Source: Spirochaetota bacterium (GTDB lineage: Bacteria > Spirochaetota > Spirochaetia > Treponematales > UBA12059). From it: 64,000 nucleotides of DNA. The stretch is taken from the NCBI GenBank assembly GCA_026398615.1, contig JAPLSN010000016.1, positions 1-64,000 on the forward strand, read 5' to 3'. The translations under genes and the position numbers were made by a program. Shown one piece after another: positions 5,723 through 58,242 of this stretch (position 1 is the first letter of the stretch; each line of letters opens with the position of its first letter). The notes below the pieces were generated by a model. That model did not search any database and was not told where the DNA came from. It worked only from the letters and a program-made list of their open reading frames with translations.

Positions 5723-7324
5723 TCACTGCTTCGTGACGATGCCATCGACGGACGGCACCTTGATGGTTCCGGCCTTCTTGGCTTCCTCGATGAGCATCTC
5801 GCGGATGGGTTCGAAGGTCTCGACGACCTTCTTTGCGTTGGGCTTCACCATCGTGTACTTGTCGCCGCCGCCGAACTGGAAGTCGTTCATCGCGCAGCTG
5901 TACATCTTGGCGTCGTCGACCGGGGTTCCGTCGTCGAGGACGAGGGAGACGATCTTGGTGGCGTCGGCGATGGCCGGGTTGTAGACGACCTTCAGGCCGG
6001 AGAACTGGCCGTTGCCGAAGTCCTTGGAATCGAGGCCGTGGGCGACGATCTGCTTGAGGACGGCGCCGGAGACTTCGAAGGTGATGGTGTAGTTGTCGAA
6101 GGGCATGAGCTCCCAGAAATCTCCGACCGTGACCACGCCGGCCGGGAACCCCTTGCGAAGGCCGCCGCCGTTCTGGAAGGCGACCTGGACGTTGTAGCGG
6201 GAGCGCATGGCGTCGCAGGTCCACTTGCCCATCGGGGTGACGTTGGCGGTGTTGGAATGCGCGAGGTCGCCGCCCGAGATGTCCGCCACCTTGTTCTTGA
6301 GCTCGGTGCCGTACTTGGCGGTGTAGTCGTCGAGGATCTTCTTGGCGTCAGGGTTCTCGGCGATCTTGTCCTTTACCTTGAAGTACTCGTCGACGGAAGG
6401 GGTGATCTTGAAGCTGCCGTCGTCGGCGAAGGCGATGAAGAGCTTGCCGAAGGTGCGGCCGTTGTAGTACCCCTGCACGACGGGGACACCGTAGAGCATG
6501 CCCGCGACCGTGTTGTGGCTATGGCCGGTGACCACGGCGTCGATGCCGTCGACGCGGCAGAGCATCTCGAGCTCGTTGAGCTCGGCCATGCCGGTCGCGG
6601 TCCCGGCGTCCTTGCCGGCGGCGGAGGGGATGTGGGTCAGTGCGATGATGACCTCGGGCTTCACGGTCTTCTCGAGTTCGGCGACCCAGATGGTGGCGGC
6701 TTCGACCGGGCTCTTGAAGTCCAGCGCATCGATGTATTCCTGCTTGGTCTTGGTGAGGGTTTCCTGCGTGGCGAGGCCGATGAACGCGACCGTGTGGCCG
6801 CCGACCTTCACGACCTGGTAGGGCTTGGCCCAGAGGACGGGCTTGCCTGAGGCCTTGTCGTAGAGGTTCGCGGCCAGGAAAGGGAAGCCGCCGTCTGCGG
6901 TCCACTGGTCGAAGTATGTCGGACCCCAGTCGAACTCGTGGTTGCCCACGGCGCTGGCAGCCAGGCCGATCAGCTTGTAGAATTCGTTGACGACCTTGCC
7001 CTTGGTGATGGCGGGAAGCGCCGATCCCTGGTAATTGTCGCCCGCGGACACGACGATCGTGTTCGGGTCGGCCTTGCGGGCGTCGAGGATGTAGGTGGCC
7101 ATCTTGGCGATGCCGGGGCTCTTGCCCTTCGGTTCCTCGGCGAGCGTGCCATGGAAATCGTTGAAAGAGAGGATGGTGACGTTCTTGGCGTTGCCGTCCG
7201 CGAGAACTTCGACGACGGCCTGGTCGACCGAGCCGTATATCGGGTAGTCGACGGGTTTGGGAGCCGTGGCGCAGCCGAACAACAGCGACGACACGAGAAG
7301 CAACGCGATCACTATGCGTTTCAT
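5723..7324 (-). CDS. Lipoprotein 5'-nucleotidase / UshA-type phosphoesterase
   Basis: 533 residues. It hydrolyses nucleotides or similar phosphoesters outside the cytoplasm, probably for purine and phosphate scavenging. A lipoprotein signal ends in LLFGC near residue 17. The calcineurin-type metallophosphatase domain shows LSFNDFHG, SAGDNYQGS, GNHEFDWG, LTHIP and VTGHSHN. The C-terminal 5'-nucleotidase domain shows FQNGGGLRKG, GDFWELMPFDN and NDFQFGGGDKY. The start at 7324 has an AGGAGG site and follows a good promoter; an upstream in-frame ATG at 7381 would spoil the signal peptide. It is monocistronic between the terminator and divergent acetate kinase. Confidence 0.92.
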   Translation of the reverse strand: MKRIVIALLLVSSLLFGCATAPKPVDYPIYGSVDQAVVEVLADGNAKNVTILSFNDFHGTLAEEPKGKSPGIAKMATYILDARKADPNTIVVSAGDNYQGSALPAITKGKVVNEFYKLIGLAASAVGNHEFDWGPTYFDQWTADGGFPFLAANLYDKASGKPVLWAKPYQVVKVGGHTVAFIGLATQETLTKTKQEYIDALDFKSPVEAATIWVAELEKTVKPEVIIALTHIPSAAGKDAGTATGMAELNELEMLCRVDGIDAVVTGHSHNTVAGMLYGVPVVQGYYNGRTFGKLFIAFADDGSFKITPSVDEYFKVKDKIAENPDAKKILDDYTAKYGTELKNKVADISGGDLAHSNTANVTPMGKWTCDAMRSRYNVQVAFQNGGGLRKGFPAGVVTVGDFWELMPFDNYTITFEVSGAVLKQIVAHGLDSKDFGNGQFSGLKVVYNPAIADATKIVSLVLDDGTPVDDAKMYSCAMNDFQFGGGDKYTMVKPNAKKVVETFEPIREMLIEEAKKAGTIKVPSVDGIVTKQ

Positions 7325-7352
7325 GGATGCCTCCTGATCTGGTGTGACGGTC

Positions 7353-7381
7353 AGTATAGACCCATCGTCCCGGGTGGGCAA
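7353..7381 (-). promoter_or_regulatory. Candidate promoter of the 5'-nucleotidase gene
   Basis: On the minus strand, TTGCCC (7376-7381) and TATACT (7353-7358) are separated by 17 bp, about 28 bp before the start codon. Confidence 0.55.
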
Positions 7382-7472
7382 GGTTTTTTGGGGTGATTAA
7401 CCGAGGGGACCGGCCGGACCCGTTCGGGCGATCCGGGAACGCGGCTTCGGGAGGGCCCGTGAGCTCTTTTTG

Positions 7473-7501
7473 TTGTGAATTCCCCGATTCGGTGGTAATA
7501 T
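7473..7501 (+). promoter_or_regulatory. Candidate promoter of ackA
   Basis: TTGTGA (7473-7478), a 17-bp spacer and TATAAT-like TAATAT (7496-7501) precede the ackA start at 7530. An AAAGGAG ribosome site lies in between. Confidence 0.5.
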
Positions 7502-7529
7502 GGATAAAACTTGGACGAAAGGAGACCTC

Positions 7530-8867
7530 ATGGTCATTCTCACCCTCAATTGCGGAAGCTCTTCCGTCAAATATCAGGTTTACGACTGGGCCGCCAAGAA
7601 TGTCATGGCTACGGGCATCGTCGAACGCGTCACGCTCGGAGGCTCGGTCATCACCCACAAGCCCACCGGCAAGGCCGAGTACGTCGAGGACCACGAATGT
7701 CCCACGCATACCGTGGCCATCGATCTTATCCTGCGGACGCTGACCAATCCCGAGTACGGCGTCATCGAGGACATGGGCATGATCAAGGTCGTCGGGCACC
7801 GGATGGTCCACGGCGGCATGAAGTTCGCCCGCTCGTCCCTCATCGACAAGGAATTCCTCGACACCTTCCGCTCGCTCATCGACCTGGCCCCGCTCCACAA
7901 CCCCCCCAATCTCATGGGCGTCGAGGCCGCGCAAGCGGTGCTCCCGAACGTGCCCCAGTGCGCGATCATGGACACGGCCTGGCACCAGACCATGCCCGAG
8001 GCCAGTTTCCTCTATGCCATCCCCTACGATTGGTACCGGACCCACAACGTCCGCCGCTACGGCTTCCACGGCACGAGCTTCCTCTACAACGCCAAGCGCG
8101 CCTCCGTCCTCCTGGGGAAGGATCCTTTCGAGACGAACCTCATCATCGCCCACGTCGGCAACGGCTCGTCCATCAACGCAGTCAAGAACGGCCGCTCCTT
8201 CGACACCTCCATGGGCATGACCCCTCTCGAGGGGCTCGTGATGGGAACCCGCTCCGGCGACATCGACCCCGGCATCATCTTCCACATGATGCGCTCCGCC
8301 GGGTTCTCGGCGGCGGACGTCGAAAAGAAGCTCAACAAGGAATCGGGCGTGCTCGGCATCACCGAGAAGTGGGCCGACCGGCGCGACATCGCGAACGCGG
8401 TGAATCAGGGGAGCCATATCGCCCAGGTGGCCCAGGAGATCGAAGGATACCGGATAAAGAAATACATCGGCGCCTACTGTGCCGCCCTCGGACGGGTCGA
8501 CGCGATCGTCTTCACCGCCGGCGTCGGCGAGATGGATCCCGACATCCGCAGGCTCGCCTGCTCCGGGCTCGAGGGACTCGGCATCGTCATCGACCCGGAG
8601 AAGAACAAGCTGGCCAAGTGCCGCAACGCCGAGCTCGAGATCACGGGCAAGGGATCCAGGATCAGGATCCTCGTGATCCCGACGGACGAGGAACTCGTCA
8701 TGACCGAGGATTCCTACGCGCTCATGACCGGCAGCTACGACGTGCACACGAATTACCGCTACTACTTCCAGGATCCCTCGTACGTCAACAAGGTCCGCGA
8801 AACCGGGCTCGCGCTCGACCTGGCCAAGAAGCCCTGGCTCAAGGATCTCATCGTAAAAGCACCGTGA
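7530..8867 (+). CDS. ackA: Acetate kinase
   Basis: 445 residues. It converts acetyl phosphate and ADP to acetate and ATP, the energy-yielding end of acetate fermentation. Signature blocks are [10 protein letters not shown] at the N-terminus, [46 protein letters not shown] and [16 protein letters not shown]-terminal tail of about 45 residues ([19 protein letters not shown] onward) makes it longer than the usual 400. The start at 7530 is preferred over an upstream ATG at 7500 because of the AAAGGAG site. No phosphate acetyltransferase gene is seen nearby. It converges on the immunophilin genes with only 7 bp between them. Confidence 0.95.
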
Positions 8868-49775: not shown

Positions 49776-50966
49776 TCAGTCGGGGAGGGCGATGCCGAGC
49801 CATCCTTTGGGATCCGAAACCGACTGGGCAATCTGGCCGATGTCCACCTTGGCCGTCGTTTCCGCGACGAGCCATTGGCGCCCGGCGAAGGGGAAGCGCG
49901 CGCCGGCTCCTTCCGCGTCGATGGCGGCCATGGCGTGGGCATATGCTTCCGATACCATCACGATGGCGTCCACGCCGTCGTGCTTGAGGAGGATGGCCAT
50001 GAGGAGGGAGCGGCTGTCGCAATCCCCGCGGCGCTCGAAAGCCGTGGACAGCGGGTTCACGAAATCCGAGCCCTCGGGGTCGCGTGCGTAGGTGAAGCCC
50101 TGCGTCCATGAGAGTACGGACCTGGCGCGGTCGACGGGGGATGGCATGCTTCCCGCCGGGGTTTTTGTCATCGATGCCCTGGCCACTTCCAGCGCGAGGT
50201 AGTCGAGGCGGTGGAAGCTGTCGCGGTACACCATGCGGAAAAAGCGGCTCCAGGCGAGGGCAGCGAGGTCTTCGGCGCCGGCATAGGCCGTGAGCACGCG
50301 GAATTCGCGCTCCACGAGGAACTGGGACGCTTCCGCCTCCGCCGGGTCGTAGGGTACGGAGAGCTGAACGCCGCCGAAATCCAAGAATGTCGGCTTCCTC
50401 CGCGCGGGATCCCAAGGGGTGTCGAACTGGCTCACGGGACCGGGGTAAAGCCGCGCTTCGGCGTCGATCGAAAAGGCGTCGATGCAGGACAGGATGAAGT
50501 CCTGGTACTCCTCGAACTCGGAGGCGGGAACGTAGGCCAGGAGGAGGAAGTCCCGTTCGGGTGCACCTTCCGGGTTTTTCTGCAGGCCGTCCACGAAGAG
50601 GGCATAGCCTTCTTCGGCGCTGCCGCCGAGATCGAAGCTCAGGTCGGCGAGGACTGCCTTTCGCCGCTGGTAGGTGAATTCCTCCGAGTCCGCCTCCGCG
50701 CCGAGCTTGCGGGCGATTTCCGCCATCCCCGCCGCGGCGGAGGCGTACCTGGCGCCGTCATAGAGGATCACCTGGAATTTTATGACTTCGTTCGGGTCGG
50801 TGAAGCTGAAATTGTTCTTCCCGTCTCCGCCGGTAAACTGGAAACCCTCGGGCATGTCGATGTAGAAGCCGGAATCGGAATAGAGTTCCTCCGCCGCGGC
50901 GAAGGCCGGTACGAATGCCAGTATGAGTGCGGCCAACGCCGCGGGACGCAGGGCTTTCATGCGCAT
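49776..50966 (-). CDS. Exported transglutaminase-like protein
   Basis: 396 residues with a signal peptide (LAALILAFVPAFAAAEE). The C-terminal third has a transglutaminase-type catalytic set: Cys in ERRGDCDSRSLLMAILLK, His in SEAYAHAMAAI and Asp in ETTAKVDIGQIAQ. The N-terminal part (GFYIDMPEGFQFTGGDGKNN, then FSFTDP) resembles small exported beta-rich domains of PsbP/MOG1 type. A peptidase or crosslinking role in the periplasm is plausible but not shown. The ATG at 50966 follows GGAGATC; an ATG at 50978 is an alternative. Confidence 0.72.
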   Translation of the reverse strand: MRMKALRPAALAALILAFVPAFAAAEELYSDSGFYIDMPEGFQFTGGDGKNNFSFTDPNEVIKFQVILYDGARYASAAAGMAEIARKLGAEADSEEFTYQRRKAVLADLSFDLGGSAEEGYALFVDGLQKNPEGAPERDFLLLAYVPASEFEEYQDFILSCIDAFSIDAEARLYPGPVSQFDTPWDPARRKPTFLDFGGVQLSVPYDPAEAEASQFLVEREFRVLTAYAGAEDLAALAWSRFFRMVYRDSFHRLDYLALEVARASMTKTPAGSMPSPVDRARSVLSWTQGFTYARDPEGSDFVNPLSTAFERRGDCDSRSLLMAILLKHDGVDAIVMVSEAYAHAMAAIDAEGAGARFPFAGRQWLVAETTAKVDIGQIAQSVSDPKGWLGIALPD

Positions 50967-51124
50967 CGTGATCTCCATGGTCGCGCGGACGCGATTCGCG
51001 GGCGGCCGGAAGGCCGGCCTGGAGCCATTCCGGGTCGGTCTTCCGGCGGGACTCCCCGATGGTGATATCGGCCGAAACGGGGTTCCGGTGAAGACGGTAT
51101 CGTGATTCGGTGGGGAAAACGGGA

Positions 51125-51541
51125 TCAGGCACTTCCCGCGGGCCGGCGCCTGATCCCGGTACCGTGTTTGCGCACGCTTCGGGCGCCGGGCACGCAGCGC
51201 GGGGACGAGGCCTGGAGCCTCCCGTCCGCGATCTCCAGGGCCAAACTCCGGAATCGATCCCAGGAAGGCATATCGTCGAACCTCGCCATGACCTCGCGGC
51301 GGGCGCCGCTCTGGACCGTGAGCATGGTTTCGCCGAGGATGTCGGTTTCCAGGTTGATGGCCATGACCGGGGTCGCTGAAGCGTCGAAGAAGAAAAGCCT
51401 GAAATGGTACGGGTTGTTGTGGCTGCGGGCGGTGTCAGGCACGGCTATGGCTTCAACCCTGTACCCGCCGCGGTCGAAACGCTCCAGGCGGATGCCCGAG
51501 TAGAGGTGCTTGATCCAGGTGAGGTCACTGAGCGCATCCAT
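51125..51541 (-). CDS. Conserved hypothetical protein
   Basis: 138 residues. No family is recognised. It begins MDALSDLTWIKHLYSG and has a mixed strand/helix pattern with SHNNPYHFRLFFFDASA and NLETDILGETMLTVQ. The C-terminal 30 residues are rich in Arg, Gly and Ser and are probably disordered. There is no signal peptide. A good GAGGAGG ribosome site makes it a genuine gene. It follows the NorD-like gene by 67 bp on the same strand, so it may belong to that operon. Confidence 0.6.
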   Translation of the reverse strand: MDALSDLTWIKHLYSGIRLERFDRGGYRVEAIAVPDTARSHNNPYHFRLFFFDASATPVMAINLETDILGETMLTVQSGARREVMARFDDMPSWDRFRSLALEIADGRLQASSPRCVPGARSVRKHGTGIRRRPAGSA

Positions 51542-51608: not shown

Positions 51609-54600
51609 TCAGCGGGTGATTTTCCGGAAAAGTTCGACGAGGCGGGAGGGCAGGGCCGACACGTCGTTCAGGTACACGAGGCTGTTCCCGAAGATCTTCG
51701 ACAGCCTGTCGACGGTGCTTTCGTCGAGGGTGATGCAGATCATCCGGATGCCCGCGTCGAGCGCTTCCTCGAACGCGCGCGCGAGGTCGGCGTAGGCATA
51801 ATCCTCGGAGGGCCCTTCGATCCTGGAAACCCGGATCGGGGTTTCCGAGACCATCGTGACGCCGTCCTCGTTGAAGGTGGTGGATGTTTCCCCCTTGTCG
51901 ACGATCCGGTCCACATAGAAGGGCATCCCGTCGGTGATGAAGAAGAGGAGCTTGACCCTGGCCTCGACCGGCCCGAGCTTCCGGGCGACGAGGTGCCTGA
52001 GTCCCGGCGCTATCCTGGAGAAGCCGCGGTCCGACGGCCTGAACGCTGACAGTTTCGAGGCGACCGACGCCTCCGCCGGGTTTTCTTCCATGTCCTTGAT
52101 CACGTGGAAGACATTCGCCCTGGCGCCCATGTCGAAGAGCGCGTAGATGCCGAAGCGGTCGTCCAGGCTCCGCATCGCCTCGGAGAGGAGGAATGCGGCG
52201 GACGCTTCGTGCGCGAACACGCTGCGTTCGCCGATGGTCCTTCGGGTCGAGGGGGACATGTCGAGCGCGAGCGCGCACGCGACGTCGCGGACCTTTCTCG
52301 ATCGCTGGATGTAGAAATCGTCCTCCATGGATCCGCCTGCCCGGAAATCCAGCAGGGCGTCGAAACAACGGTCGAAGTCGATATCGTCGCCGTCGTCCAT
52401 CCCCGTGCGGGGCAGGTCGAGGCTTTCCTTGAGCGCCTGGAAGGCCTTGCGGACGGAGGCCGCCCGCCCCCGTTCGCGTTTCGCCAGGTCGTCGGGCGCC
52501 TGGGAGTCGTCCGCGGACGAGCCGTCCGTCCCCGAGTCCAGCTCGACGAGCAGGCACTTGTCGCGGATGTAGGCCAGCTCGGCGTGATCCCATTCGTCGT
52601 ACCGGAAGATGGCCCGGTTTTCCGCGAGCCCTTCAAGTTTCGCGGCTTCCGGCCCGCCATGCTCGCCGCAGGCCCGGCGGAAGGATTCCCTCGTCTCGGC
52701 CTCGTCCCGGTTTGCCGGTCCGCCCCCCTCGACGAAGGCTCCGCCCGAGCCGGCGCTCTCTATCTCGAACTGGAGCGGGCAGTTGCGCCCCTGGCCCGAT
52801 GCGTCGAGCGACGAGAAGGACACGGAAAGGACGTCGGTCGATTCGCGGAGCGCGTTGAAGGCGCGCGGGAAGCGGCGCGAAAGGTCGTCGAGGTACGTCC
52901 TGAGGACCGAGCCCGCGACCATGGCCGAGTGGTAGATGTCCGCGGCGGCGGGAGCGAAGGAGTCGAGCGGCGCCATCATCTGGCCGAGGGCGTCGGAATC
53001 GGCGTCGGAGAGTTCGCCCTTGAGCTTTCCGAACCAGAGCCGTTCGATGAGGGCCTGGAGGGTCCGGGTTTCCGGCTCGAAGTCCTCGAGGACGCGCAGC
53101 GAATCGAAATCGATCCCGTCGACCTCCGCCTTTTCCTTCGCATAACCGGGATACTTCGAGTAGAGCAGCAGGTTCACCCGGTAGTCTTCCACGATGTTGA
53201 GGACGTCCCGGAAGAGCGTGGGAAAGGGCGTCAGGAAGCCGAGCCGCACCTGGTCCGGGAAGTCCGCGAAGCCGCGGTTGACCGCCGCTTTCACCCGGTA
53301 CCCGAGCGCGGCGAGCGCGGCCTCGACCTGTTTCGCGTAACGCGCCAGCAGTTTCCGGTTCCGCTCGCCCGAGCCGGGGAAGAGCCGTTCGAAAACCGCG
53401 GCCGTCGCGGAGCAGCGCACGGGATCCTGGAGAAAGCTGCCGAACTCGATATGGGCGGACTCGTGGGCGGCGCCGTGACGGAGCATGAGCAGGTTCCTGC
53501 GGGCGTCGTCGACGTAATTGACGTGGGGCGGCACCCAGATCGCCTTGCCGTCGGTGAAGAATCGGTGCTCGAGCCTGGACTCCCCTGCGGGAGTACGCCC
53601 GCGCCCGCCGCCAGAGCCCGCGTCGACGACGGGCGGGGCTTCGTCGCGGTACGTCCTCAGGGCGACGGGTTTTCCGGTGAGCGCCTGGACGAAATACGTG
53701 AAGCGTTCCCGGACATCCTCGAATTCCACGCCGGAGTCCAGGGAGGACCACACCTTCCTGCCGTGCTCGGATTTCCTGTCGAAGTACTGCCTGGCGGCCT
53801 GCGAACCGGCTCCGGCGGTCCTGACCACGCGCGCGCCCTCGTCCACCCACGCGCTCAGGTCGAGCGAGGGGTGGCGGACGACGGCGTCGAAGATCTTGGC
53901 GACGATCCCCTTGTCCGCGGAGCGGGCGTACCGGAGAAAGCCCTTCACGAGCCTGAAAACCCGCCCGAAGGTTTCGGTCTTCCCCGGGTGGAACATGGCC
54001 GCGCAGGTTTCGATCAGCGAGAGGAGGGACTTGAGCATCTCCCTCGTGTACCGTTCGTCCACCTGGAAATCCGCCAGCGCCAGCGAAGCTTCGCGGGGTC
54101 CGAATCCGTTTTTCACCCAGGTTCGCGAGAGCATGGAGAATGTTTCCCACGCTTCGAGGCCGCGGGTGCTTTCGAGGGAGAGCGCGAGGCCGAGGAAGAG
54201 GGACAGGTCGTCGGCCGAGCCCGGGACGAGGCCTGCGCGGAATTCCGCCATGGTCTTCGCAAAGGATTCACCGGAGGGGTTGCCCGGTCTGGCGGCGCAG
54301 AAGGACACGATGCAGCGGTCGAAAAGTTCGCACGCGCCGCGGACGCCGCCCAGGACCGCGTCGATGGAATTCCAGAGGGCGCGCCAGTCGATCCTGGAAC
54401 CGTCGTAGGGAGAAGTCGTCGCGCCGGCTGTGGACGGGAGGCGGTCGTTCTCCAGGGGCAGGACCGCGATGCGCGCCGCCTGGAACCGTGACCTGGCGCC
54501 TTCCGCGGCGGGTTCGTACGCGCCGGCGACGAGCCTGGCCTTGCGTTGGAACGCGTTCGACCCGCCGGTCAGCTCCAGCGGTCGTTCGGCCGCCGCCCTG

Positions 54601-54863
54601 GCTTCCCGCGAGGCGAGCGTGACGAGGGCGGCACAGGCCGGGGTCCCGAGGAAGCCCGAGAATTCCGTTTCCCAGACCGCCGCCCGACCCGGGTCGAAGA
54701 ACGGCGCGGCGCCCCGGAGCAGGGCCTCCTGGAGCGCCCGGTCGCCCCCCGAAGCCCGGAACGCGGCGGAAAAGATGCCGTAGACGCGGTCCCGTCCCAG
54801 CGCAGGTTCCAGGACCGACGCGAACGAGAGGAGGGAGCGTTCTATCGCGTCCGTGCCGTTCAT
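51609..54863 (-). CDS. NorD/CbbO-like VWA-domain protein
   Basis: 1084 residues. The C-terminal von Willebrand A domain has a complete MIDAS: DMSPS near 868, with ITDGMP near 975. Near 464 an HESAH (HExxH) motif sits in LMLRHGAAHESAHIEFGSF, as in NorD/CbbO relatives. Such proteins pair with NorQ/CbbQ AAA+ ATPases to activate or insert metal cofactors in target enzymes. The ATG overlaps the norQ-like TGA as ATGA, so the two are a unit. It is longer than the usual 600-800 residues, the extra part being N-terminal helical. The target enzyme is not encoded nearby. Confidence 0.85.
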   Translation of the reverse strand: MNGTDAIERSLLSFASVLEPALGRDRVYGIFSAAFRASGGDRALQEALLRGAAPFFDPGRAAVWETEFSGFLGTPACAALVTLASREARAAAERPLELTGGSNAFQRKARLVAGAYEPAAEGARSRFQAARIAVLPLENDRLPSTAGATTSPYDGSRIDWRALWNSIDAVLGGVRGACELFDRCIVSFCAARPGNPSGESFAKTMAEFRAGLVPGSADDLSLFLGLALSLESTRGLEAWETFSMLSRTWVKNGFGPREASLALADFQVDERYTREMLKSLLSLIETCAAMFHPGKTETFGRVFRLVKGFLRYARSADKGIVAKIFDAVVRHPSLDLSAWVDEGARVVRTAGAGSQAARQYFDRKSEHGRKVWSSLDSGVEFEDVRERFTYFVQALTGKPVALRTYRDEAPPVVDAGSGGGRGRTPAGESRLEHRFFTDGKAIWVPPHVNYVDDARRNLLMLRHGAAHESAHIEFGSFLQDPVRCSATAAVFERLFPGSGERNRKLLARYAKQVEAALAALGYRVKAAVNRGFADFPDQVRLGFLTPFPTLFRDVLNIVEDYRVNLLLYSKYPGYAKEKAEVDGIDFDSLRVLEDFEPETRTLQALIERLWFGKLKGELSDADSDALGQMMAPLDSFAPAAADIYHSAMVAGSVLRTYLDDLSRRFPRAFNALRESTDVLSVSFSSLDASGQGRNCPLQFEIESAGSGGAFVEGGGPANRDEAETRESFRRACGEHGGPEAAKLEGLAENRAIFRYDEWDHAELAYIRDKCLLVELDSGTDGSSADDSQAPDDLAKRERGRAASVRKAFQALKESLDLPRTGMDDGDDIDFDRCFDALLDFRAGGSMEDDFYIQRSRKVRDVACALALDMSPSTRRTIGERSVFAHEASAAFLLSEAMRSLDDRFGIYALFDMGARANVFHVIKDMEENPAEASVASKLSAFRPSDRGFSRIAPGLRHLVARKLGPVEARVKLLFFITDGMPFYVDRIVDKGETSTTFNEDGVTMVSETPIRVSRIEGPSEDYAYADLARAFEEALDAGIRMICITLDESTVDRLSKIFGNSLVYLNDVSALPSRLVELFRKITR

Positions 54864-55777
54864 CACATCAGGTCGAAGCCCTTGCAGACGTCGATGAGGG
54901 AGAGCCGCATCTGCTCGTCGTCCGTGATCGGCGAGACGAGGCTGGACAGCACCGCGTCCTCCTTCGGGACTCCCTCCGCGACGAGGGACGCCGCGTAGAC
55001 GAGGAGGCGGGTCGACACGCCCTCCGTGAGCCCCTGCGACTTGAGCCCGCGTATCTTCCGCCCCGCCGCGACGAGGGACCGCGCCAGGCCTTCCTGGCAA
55101 CCGCTCTCGTGGCGTACCACCTCGATCTCCACGTTCTCGGGCGGGTAGTCGAAGTCGATCGCGACGAAGCGCTGCTTGGTCGACGGTTTCAGGTCCTTGA
55201 GCGCTGACTGGTACCCGGGGTTGTACGAGACGATGAGCATGAACGAGGGCGGCGGCGTCACCGTCGTGCCCTTCTTGACCAGGGGGAGGATGCGGCGGTA
55301 ATCGGTAAGGGAGTGGATGAGCACCGTCACGTCCTTGCGGGCCTCGACGATCTCGTCCAGGTAGCAGATGCCGCCGTAGCGCGCGGCCTTGGTGAGCGGG
55401 CCGTCGATCCAGCGCACGCCCTGGTCCATCGTGAGAAAAAAGCGGCCGACGAGGTCGTTCGCGGTGAGGTCCTCGTGGCAGGGGACGGTGACGAGGAAGC
55501 TCTTCTTCTTCGCGAAATCGACCGTCTCCGCGCGCACGACGCCCGCCGTGCGGTCCGCCTGGATCCGGGTAAGCACCTTGTTGAGCTTGAAGGCCATTGC
55601 CTCCACGAAGCGCGTCTTGCCGCAGCCCGTGGGTCCTTTCAGGAGAAGCGGCAGCTTCCGCTTGTACGCCGCGGCGAAGAGCCTGGCTTCGTTCCCTACC
55701 GGGATATAGTAGGGTTCCTCGAGGATGTCGGTTTCCTCGATCGCGGTTTCGTTCTCCTTCAGCAACAGGTCGTCCAT
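54863..55777 (-). CDS. NorQ/CbbQ-like MoxR-type AAA+ ATPase
   Basis: 304 residues. Walker A is GPTGCGKT (48-55) and Walker B is GGICYLDEI near 142. A sensor-1 Asn is in VSYNPGYQSALKDLKPSTKQRFVAIDFDYPP, the CbbQ/NirQ/NorQ signature. A small insertion, RIQADRTAGVVRAETVDFAK, lies after Walker A. With the VWA partner it would form a hexamer that remodels a metalloenzyme. Neither RuBisCO nor NO reductase genes are seen. A good promoter and a GGGAG site lie upstream, divergent from the DHH-like gene. Confidence 0.9.
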   Translation of the reverse strand: MDDLLLKENETAIEETDILEEPYYIPVGNEARLFAAAYKRKLPLLLKGPTGCGKTRFVEAMAFKLNKVLTRIQADRTAGVVRAETVDFAKKKSFLVTVPCHEDLTANDLVGRFFLTMDQGVRWIDGPLTKAARYGGICYLDEIVEARKDVTVLIHSLTDYRRILPLVKKGTTVTPPPSFMLIVSYNPGYQSALKDLKPSTKQRFVAIDFDYPPENVEIEVVRHESGCQEGLARSLVAAGRKIRGLKSQGLTEGVSTRLLVYAASLVAEGVPKEDAVLSSLVSPITDDEQMRLSLIDVCKGFDLM

Positions 55778-55800
55778 CGTCGGTCTCCCGTGTGGCGGGA

Positions 55801-55830
55801 ATGATACGGCGGATTCGCCCGGGCGATCAA
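55801..55830 (-). promoter_or_regulatory. Candidate promoter of the norQ-norD-like operon
   Basis: On the minus strand, TTGATC (55825-55830) and TATCAT (55801-55806) have an 18-bp spacer. The divergent gene has a perfect TATAAT at 55864-55869, so the two promoters lie back to back within 70 bp. Confidence 0.55.
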
Positions 55831-55863
55831 TACGCTTCGCACGTGCGACCCCGCTTCATGGTA

Positions 55864-55869
55864 TATAAT
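55864..55869 (+). promoter_or_regulatory. Candidate -10 box of the DHH-like gene
   Basis: A perfect TATAAT 18 bp before the ATG at 55888, with no clear -35 element. Confidence 0.4.
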
Positions 55870-55887
55870 GGCGGCAGGGAGTCGACC

Positions 55888-58242
55888 ATGCCTCGTTACG
55901 AATATGTGGAATTCGGCCGGCAGCTGCGCGCCGCCGAGCCGGGAAAGCTCTACCTCGACGTCGGGAACGACCTCGCGCCCGGAGTCGTCGACCACCACCA
56001 CAGGGACGACGCGACCAGCGCCGCCGAGCTCGTCGTCCGCAGGCCGGGGTTGGTGACGGGATGGATTCCCCCGGGCGCCGATGACTGGACCATCGTGGTC
56101 CATCGCTACCCCGACCTCGATTGCGCCTGCGCGGCGTACTTTGCGGAAAAGCTCGTCCGGGAGGGCCGACTGCCCGAAGGAGCCGACCGGATCGCCGAGT
56201 ACGTGACCGGCGTGGACCAGGGCCGTTTCGGGGAGATCGACGCCGACCATCCCGGCATCTACGAAACCTTCGCCGTGCTCGTCGATGCCCTGGAGCTTCC
56301 GATGCCCGAAAGGTGGGACGAAACCATGCGGATCGGACGCAGGATCCTGGACTTCGCCCTTTCGAAGGCCCGGAATTTCGGGTCGGCCGGGCTTCCCGGG
56401 AACCTGTTCGATGACGCGCCGGAGGAATTCCGCGCCGCGCGGGACCAGCTCAGGGAAGACCGGGCCGCCTACCTGGCGGACGTGACCGACCTCGACAAAT
56501 TCCGGATCATGACCGCCCGACTGCCCCGCGAGCGCTCGGGATCGGTCGAGGAGACCGACGGCGTGGTCTGGACGGCTCCGAGCCCCAAATTCTTTAAGCT
56601 CTGGGCGCGCACCGACCTCGCGCGCTCATCCAGGGGCAGGGGTTTCCGCTTCCTCTACGTGGTCTGGCCGGGCGGCTGCGATGGCCGCGACAGGCACGTC
56701 CTGAGCGTCGATCCATATTCCGGCTGCGACCTGCGGGGTCTCGGCGCCGCCCTCAACCGGCTGGAAGCCGCGGCGCGCGCGCGGATGGGCGTGGTCATCG
56801 ACGGTCCGCCCCGCGACGGATACGATATCGCCGATCCTTGGTACGACGGCCGCGGGCACGATTATACCATCGTCGACGCCCCGTCGCGGGGGACGGAACT
56901 CGAACCCGAGGAAATCGAGAATGTCCTCGCATCGTTCAACGAGCTCGAAGCCTTCAGCCGGACCTCGTGCTCGAGGGTCGTCATCGACCTGCTGTACCGG
57001 CTGGACGCCCCGGAGCCTTCCGGTGCCGCACGGCGTCCCGCCTCCCGCCGCCGCGCGCCAAAGGCCGACACGACAGCCCTTCCCGACGCTCGCTGGACGA
57101 AGCCGGCTTCGACGGCGGGTTATGACTTCAGCGAACCCTTCCGGATCGCCCTGGAGTCCGCCGCCTCCGATTCATCCAGATCGCCGGCCAGGGCCTTGCG
57201 GACGGAAGCCCTGCCCGAGTCGCCTGAGGAAGGGTTCCGTCTCGTCGCCCTGGAAGCCGTCTTTCCGCGATGGGCACAGCCCCTCGTTCTCGTGCGCCTG
57301 GAATCGTGCCCGCGGGACGGGGGTCGGGGCCGCGGCGTTCCCGCGATGGACGCCCGCTCGGTGTTCGCGCTCCGCCACGACCTCGAGACGGGCGAGGCCG
57401 ACGCCGTCGCCTGCGCGGTCTTGGGAGCCTTTCCCGAATGGCCGGCGGAAGGGAGGGTGTCGCTCGTGGATTCGTCGTGGCTCGTGGAATTCGCCGATTC
57501 GCGCGTGTCCAGGATCGGCGATTACTTCGACGCCCTGTGCTCCGCCTTCGTCGCGGGCGACGCCGAACCGACGGCGGCGGTCGCTGCCGTCGGTTTCGAT
57601 CCCCTCTCGGGCGTAGAGAGGATCGGCAGGCGTTGCGTGATCGCGGTGCAGAGCGACCTGAAAGCCCTTCTGTACGAGTCACGCGACCCGGAGACACCCG
57701 CGGCCGCGGTGCGGCGGATGCGCGATGCCTGGCTCGGCGCGGGCAGGGAGGCGATGCGGGAAGCCAGGCTCAGGAAGCAGCTTCTGGACGCCGCGCAAGC
57801 CCGGCTCGCGGCGGTGGCGGCAGCGGGACACGGGCCGGCCAGGACTTCGAGGGAGCTGGGAACCCTCCAGGACATTCTCGTCGCGTACCGGGCGGACCGC
57901 TACTTTACGGAGGTGTCGGACGACCCGAACGTCGCGGGCATCTGGAAGCTCGCGACCTCCTGCCTGGACCTGGACGCCGCGCTCGAACGGCTTTCGGATT
58001 CGGTGTCGGCCCTGAAGGACCACACGGACACGCGGCGGCGGGCGTACATCGAACGTTTCATCTACGCGGCCACGATCCTCTTCCTGCCGGCCACCCTGTT
58101 CACCGACTATGTCGGCGCCATCCTTTTCGACAGATTCCCCTTTGCCTCACAGGCCGTCGCCATCGTGCTGTCCGGCTACGCGGTCCTGGGCTTCGCGGTT
58201 CTCGGGTTCTTCCTCGTCGACCGGCGCCGCGGGAAACGCTGA
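55888..58242 (+). CDS. DHH-like protein with C-terminal membrane helices
   Basis: 784 residues. The N-terminus reads LDVGNDLAPGVVDHHHRDDATSAAELV, a DHH motif (35-37) with the typical ATS-AAELV helix, and then HRYPDLDCACAAYF (72-85), which resembles motif I of DHH phosphoesterases. In known DHH enzymes motif I comes first, so the order looks permuted. The middle (about 400-600) is not recognised. The C-terminus, RAYIERFIYAATILFLP and AVAIVLSGYAVLGFAVLGFFLV, has two membrane helices ending in basic residues, recalling CorA-type anchors but without GMN. It is divergent from the norQ-norD pair. Nuclease or nucleotide phosphodiesterase activity is only a hypothesis. Confidence 0.65.
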   Translation: MPRYEYVEFGRQLRAAEPGKLYLDVGNDLAPGVVDHHHRDDATSAAELVVRRPGLVTGWIPPGADDWTIVVHRYPDLDCACAAYFAEKLVREGRLPEGADRIAEYVTGVDQGRFGEIDADHPGIYETFAVLVDALELPMPERWDETMRIGRRILDFALSKARNFGSAGLPGNLFDDAPEEFRAARDQLREDRAAYLADVTDLDKFRIMTARLPRERSGSVEETDGVVWTAPSPKFFKLWARTDLARSSRGRGFRFLYVVWPGGCDGRDRHVLSVDPYSGCDLRGLGAALNRLEAAARARMGVVIDGPPRDGYDIADPWYDGRGHDYTIVDAPSRGTELEPEEIENVLASFNELEAFSRTSCSRVVIDLLYRLDAPEPSGAARRPASRRRAPKADTTALPDARWTKPASTAGYDFSEPFRIALESAASDSSRSPARALRTEALPESPEEGFRLVALEAVFPRWAQPLVLVRLESCPRDGGRGRGVPAMDARSVFALRHDLETGEADAVACAVLGAFPEWPAEGRVSLVDSSWLVEFADSRVSRIGDYFDALCSAFVAGDAEPTAAVAAVGFDPLSGVERIGRRCVIAVQSDLKALLYESRDPETPAAAVRRMRDAWLGAGREAMREARLRKQLLDAAQARLAAVAAAGHGPARTSRELGTLQDILVAYRADRYFTEVSDDPNVAGIWKLATSCLDLDAALERLSDSVSALKDHTDTRRRAYIERFIYAATILFLPATLFTDYVGAILFDRFPFASQAVAIVLSGYAVLGFAVLGFFLVDRRRGKR

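Follow-up and report, generated by a model that had tools for sequence, protein, structure and literature searches.

Genes and features at the locus

The window analysed here is a stretch of 64,000 nt from a Spirochaetota genome (contig JAPLSN010000016.1), and all positions are counted from its first nucleotide. It holds a gene, here called P0001, in which a DHH-type phosphoesterase module is joined to a CorA-like membrane part. The first-pass annotation of this DNA had placed the gene divergent from a NorQ-NorD pair, which we confirm with a gap of 110 bp. The features are as follows.

51609-54863, minus strand: NorD-like vWA protein, 1084 aa, its start codon overlapping the stop codon of the NorQ-like gene; DxSxS motif
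54863-55777, minus strand: NorQ/CbbQ-like MoxR AAA+ ATPase (AAA_5 6.9e-28, CbbQ_C 2.5e-27)
55778-55887, no strand: divergent intergenic region, 110 bp, between P0001 and the NorQ-like gene
55888-58242, plus strand: P0001, rearranged DHH-DHHA1 / CorA-like protein, 784 aa; ORF with ATG at 55888
55888-56961, plus strand: rearranged DHH-DHHA1 phosphoesterase module, aa 1-358 (AlphaFold model, fold matches, alignment A3)
55954-55968, plus strand: LDVGN, aa 23-27, motif II, D24 invariant (family alignment, transposition test)
55990-56001, plus strand: DHHH, aa 35-38, motif III, D35 and H37 invariant (family alignment)
56101-56121, plus strand: HRYPDLD, aa 72-78, motif I, with H72, P75 and D78 invariant (Pfam, family alignment)
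56212-56223, plus strand: VDQG, aa 109-112, probable motif IV (D110), aligning with the canonical YDTG
56443-56949, plus strand: DHHA1-like subdomain, aa 186-354, matched by C-terminal domains in NrnA structures and by C-Ala of AlaRS
56836-56859, plus strand: PWYDGRGH, aa 317-324, family signature (pattern scan)
56965-57687, plus strand: middle region, aa 360-600, of low confidence in the full-length model
57697-58239, plus strand: CorA-like stalk helices and two transmembrane helices, aa 729-747 and 759-777 (PADLOC profile, model, hydrophobicity)

Inside the intergenic region we found one weak sigma70-like match, on the minus strand at 55830-55801.

Motif order of the DHH module

Proteins of the DHH superfamily carry four motifs, I (HxxxDxD), II (D), III (DHH) and IV (D), which form a two-metal site and follow one another in the canonical order I-II-III-IV. 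The ordinary DHH proteins of the source genome have motif I first and DHH later. In the translated ORF of P0001 the DHH segment (aa 35-37) does come ahead of HRYPDLD (aa 72-78), as had been noted on first inspection. The order was then described as reversed; the motifs are indeed rearranged, but this is no plain reversal, as motifs II and III stand ahead of motif I while motif IV keeps its place.

In an alignment of 22 diverse relatives (A3) the residues D24, D35, H37, H72, P75 and D78 were invariant and D76 and D110 were at least 90% conserved, with the order DVG - DHH - HxxPDxD - VDxG constant across all members. H36 was replaced by A, Q or V in four relatives. The metal-binding residues of all four motifs are present and conserved in the 22 rows, and because they are kept across such diverse relatives the motif order of P0001 is not due to chance. 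The residues D24, D35, H36/H37, H72, D76, D78 and D110 would be expected to cluster as a metal site.

The rearrangement was tested by profile-profile alignment against the canonical DHH proteins of the same genome. In its native order the P0001 profile aligned motif I alone, with a score of 36.9; with aa 1-62 transposed behind aa 106 the score was 58.4, and motifs I, II and III were all aligned. Two controls were run. When the columns of the transposed segment were shuffled 60 times, the scores averaged 35.9 (sd 0.5, maximum 39.2); when sixteen other segments of the same length were used in its place, none scored above 36.6. Against four canonical proteins, one insertion point extended the alignment through VDQG against YDTG (motif IV), the insertion point itself being not sharply resolved (scores of 52-58 for points 94-118). 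By these alignments the motifs run II-III-I-IV, the motif I unit having been transposed; as motif IV aligns in its canonical place the permutation is non-circular, and a strict circular permutation was dropped in favour of transposition. With this order, P0001 would thus be a rearranged variant and not an ordinary member of the DHH superfamily. The open-access literature searched does not describe any permuted DHH family.

The Pfam DHH model (PF01368) matched P0001 weakly and around motif I only (aa 69-106, E 0.044), at 14.5 bits versus a cut-off of 28.1; relatives reached up to 19.8 bits.

Predicted fold of the enzyme part

An AlphaFold2 model of aa 1-375 built on A3 had a pLDDT of 88.9 and a pTM of 0.85. 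The top Foldseek matches were the exopolyphosphatase PPX1 and PggH (probability 1.0), then RecJ-Cdc45, and VIA-align gave Z-scores of 10.3 for PggH (243 residues, 4.3 A), 8.7 for RecJ-Cdc45 and 8.4 for PAP phosphatase. The leading VIA-align rows were DHH-superfamily proteins, Cdc45 among them, and NrnA-type enzymes were also matched. Structure prediction had been proposed in the first-pass annotation as a check for a permuted DHH fold; a DHH fold was predicted, PggH being the best match at a moderate Z for a predicted model. The DHHA1 part was found in aa 186-354, by comparison with NrnA C-terminal domains and C-Ala. These computations place aa 1-358 in the DHH-DHHA1 phosphoesterase superfamily, as a module whose motif segments have been transposed and whose metal-binding positions are all kept.

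P0001 shares all four DHH motifs, a DHHA1-like subdomain and the predicted fold with NrnA-, PggH- and GdpP-type phosphodiesterases, but differs from them in its order II-III-I-IV (theirs is I-II-III-IV), in PWYDGRGH and in its two transmembrane helices. PWYDGRGH is likely the counterpart of the glycine-rich/His motif of DHHA1. The MYG1 exonuclease (PF03690) has a DVGG...DHH string resembling the LDVGN...DHH of P0001, but in canonical motif order. As nearest canonical relative MYG1 was rejected, the profile comparison being no better than chance.

The CorA-like membrane part

Two C-terminal CorA-like membrane helices had been predicted earlier, and both the hydrophobic segments (aa 729-747 and 759-777) and a match to the PADLOC CorA-like profile agree with this. 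For P0001 alone the profile match was weak (aa 655-747, E 0.0085). Nine other family members matched PADLOC CorA-like models here with E from 5.5e-20 to 1e-4, the best being those of Evansella (5.5e-20) and Gracilibacter (9e-19), and the similarity within the family covers stalk and helices (profile 233-440). When the C-terminal profile was compared with the PDB, CorA chains led the list at a marginal E of 0.024. In the full-length model aa 604-783 form long stalk-like helices leading into two transmembrane helices, as in CorA. The GMN motif typical of CorA is absent from the P0001 sequence. The profile and model comparisons show the C-terminus to be a relative of the CorA-like effector found in type III CRISPR systems. 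The position of the middle region (aa 360-600) makes it a candidate for a cytosolic sensor domain of CorA type.

At two loci of relatives, L111 and L112, a separate gene for a CorA-like protein lies next to the DHH gene; the one at L112 is an ORF of 242 aa (E 3.8e-6). At L111 a 514-aa ORF (7162-8706) lies directly upstream of the DHH-CorA gene, and PADLOC CorA models match its N- and C-terminal parts; it is a second CorA-like protein within the operon.

Distribution of the family

Relatives were sought in 85k genomes with an IUPAC DNA pattern made from PWYDGRGH..T (aa 317-328), followed by family profile searches. The pattern occurred at 17 places, 16 of them true in-frame relatives, on contigs labelled as deltaproteobacteria/myxobacteria, KSB1, Acidobacteria, Planctomycetes, Verrucomicrobia, Firmicutes, Sulfurimonas and Cloacimonadota. 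The family spans at least eight phyla and is without a Pfam model, and all active members share the motif order of P0001. Among sampled groups the family profile found members in 39 of 195 genomes of one and 8 of 199 of a second. In a third group they occurred in 9 of 199 genomes (eight besides the centre), where most of them are standalone proteins some 350 aa long. A standalone homologue of 350 aa is also encoded at L188:6832-7869. Some standalone members, in one group, adjoin ABC-transporter genes, and the family may therefore include housekeeping phosphodiesterases. One contig labelled Bifidobacterium breve (L081 / L118) bears a GC-rich member of deltaproteobacterial type, and the label is probably a binning error.

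Closer to the source, a whole-protein search of 39 genomes of its family and order gave no relatives, and the N-terminal half as query against 393 genomes of the phylum gave two matches (L003 and L004), both spurious. The family profile found no convincing second member in 345 genomes of the phylum, with one marginal match to motif I only; hence the gene was probably acquired in the source lineage. No match was obtained with full-length P0001 by tblastn against plasmids, nor in a first contig scan of genomes with the P0001 query, and DHH-H-P-D-x-D DNA patterns in viral contigs fell in out-of-context frames only.

Fusion partners and neighbours of relatives

The rearranged DHH module is fused to TIR domains at L080 (1.2e-9) and L110 (1e-12), to Ser/Thr kinases at L080 and L113, to caspase C14 at L152 and L201, and to nucleotidyl cyclases at L122, L161 and L196. 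The last are class III cyclases (PF00211; L161:2-2101, L196:4656-7919, L122:3750-6566), two of them also with TPRs, and such a fusion could be a pair of synthesis and degradation within one protein. STAND ATPases with TPRs or a NACHT-like domain stand directly upstream of the DHH gene at L115, L117 and L123, and a PADLOC PDC-S11 gene neighbours it at L118.

In myxobacteria the DHH gene is found with caspase, DUF4145-TPR, CsgG-like and cNMP-binding genes. A conserved cluster there (L152:2675-12421, L153, L154, L158, L165) consists of a degenerate DHH-CorA, caspase, DUF4145-TPR, CsgG/LpoB-like and cNMP-binding genes. The caspase-linked versions of myxobacteria and planctomycetes are without motifs II and III, their profile match beginning at position 72-76, and since these motifs are missing they are probably non-catalytic.

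As a phosphodiesterase module is here joined with TIR, caspase, kinase, cyclase and STAND partners, the associations point to conflict or cell-death signalling. Relatives carry suicide or immune domains, and for this reason P0001 probably belongs to a switch for defence or cell death that responds to a nucleotide signal. Neither a signal synthase nor a defence gene was identified next to P0001 itself.

Proposed function

In the type III-B CRISPR system of B. fragilis the DHH protein NrN hydrolyses SAM-AMP, and CorA is the membrane effector that SAM-AMP activates (PMC10600005). In A. butzleri the two are fused, and the nearest fold for NrN is PggH (PMC10600005). P0001 resembles this pair in that a DHH-family phosphodiesterase is joined to, or adjoins, a CorA-like membrane effector; NrN and the P0001 domain both have PggH as their closest fold, and the P0001 C-terminus matches the PADLOC CorA. 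It differs in its rearranged motif order, a comparison that leaves the order of the A. butzleri fusion aside, in the extra TIR, caspase, kinase, cyclase and STAND partners of its family, and in coming from a genome without a detected Cas10. The last rests on one Cas10 palm2 model (PF22335), which had no match in the source genome (99% complete assembly); a type III CRISPR system in this genome was set aside on the same search.

On balance we lean towards P0001 being a nucleotide-gated membrane effector with a built-in phosphodiesterase, similar to NrN-CorA and acting without Cas10. The DHH-DHHA1 part would hydrolyse a nucleotide second messenger or a linear dinucleotide, while the middle domain and stalk would bind the same or a related nucleotide. 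The CorA-like helices, probably oligomeric, would then open or disturb the membrane, and the phosphodiesterase would limit or reset the signal in cis. Because no Cas10 was detected, the source of the signal would differ from that of type III-B CRISPR.

Alternative readings

P0001 could instead be a membrane-anchored housekeeping phosphodiesterase of nanoRNase, pAp or pGpG type, the helices being a mere tether and neither channel nor effector. In favour of this, the fold comes nearest to that of PggH, a pGpG phosphodiesterase, and in one bacterial group active versions that stand alone, with no part in the membrane, are common. We nevertheless find this somewhat unlikely, as the CorA similarity extends over the stalk as well as the helices, CorA is also encoded on its own next to the DHH gene, and the module is otherwise fused to TIR, caspase, kinase and cyclase. 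A little less probable still is that the rearranged module only senses, binding a nucleotide without destroying it and gating the fused effector allosterically. The probably inactive caspase-linked versions would suit such a receptor, as would the loss of the first His of DHH in four relatives, but every metal ligand is kept in P0001 and in most divergent relatives.

The first-pass annotation had suggested a joint function with NorQ-NorD, and P0001 might then belong to a MoxR-vWA machine in which an AAA+/vWA pair remodels a membrane protein. The genes are divergent across 110 bp, NorQ and NorD are translationally coupled, and MoxR-vWA pairs are known in conflict systems (PMC7159879). Such systems have an effector repertoire in common with the P0001 family (TIR, caspase, trypsin-like), and a MoxR-vWA pair adjoins P0001, but the survey names no DHH or CorA component (PMC7159879) and NorQ-NorD is not conserved with the P0001 family. 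A profile search of the flanks of 47 relatives (658 kb) found NorD in 0/47 and, for NorQ, one weak AAA match only, with profiles that recover both the window pair and positive controls. In 27 other genomes of the phylum there are NorD-like proteins to which the one of the window aligns, and no DHH gene adjoins any of the six nearest NorD loci (25-35% identity). The divergent pairing is found here alone, an outcome that the annotation itself had named as speaking against it. As the DHH gene also has no convincing relative in the 345 sampled genomes of the phylum, we hold a NorQ-NorD machine to be very improbable, and the suggestion of a joint function is not supported.

Some further genes were seen in passing. 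Downstream of norD on the minus strand the window has a 138-aa ORF without a Pfam match (51125-51541), as well as a gene that matches the transglutaminase core weakly (49776-50978, E 0.0019). Within about 10 kb of three relatives there are vWA or BatA/DUF58 genes (L111:15180-16058, L117:206-916, L112:1-5512); they form no NorQ/NorD pair and could be there by chance.

That the DHH and HxxPDxD letters are coincidental in a protein unrelated to DHH, as the sub-threshold Pfam score and a PDB sequence search with the domain profile (no significant match) might be taken to say, is hardly conceivable and in effect ruled out by the invariance of the residues across phyla, the transposition test and top fold matches that are uniformly DHH.

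Implications for the DHH superfamily and nucleotide signalling

The DHH-DHHA1 phosphoesterase fold is universal, and standard profiles overlook the permuted version, Pfam scoring motif I alone. With its first beta-alpha unit placed behind motifs II and III, this DHH-DHHA1 module would be a natural non-circular permutation that is undescribed in the literature searched.

Returning to the reading of P0001 as a nucleotide-gated effector, we speculate, tentatively, that its family may form an undescribed, CRISPR-independent network of nucleotide-signalled conflict. In such a network the CorA-like, TIR and caspase effectors would be under the control of STAND sensors and of cyclases or other producers of the signal, and the permuted DHH phosphodiesterase would be the off-switch or receiver common to them. 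The partners of the family suggest that the phosphodiesterase-plus-CorA logic of type III CRISPR may be used more widely, and the family supplies defined proteins for seeking new nucleotide messengers.
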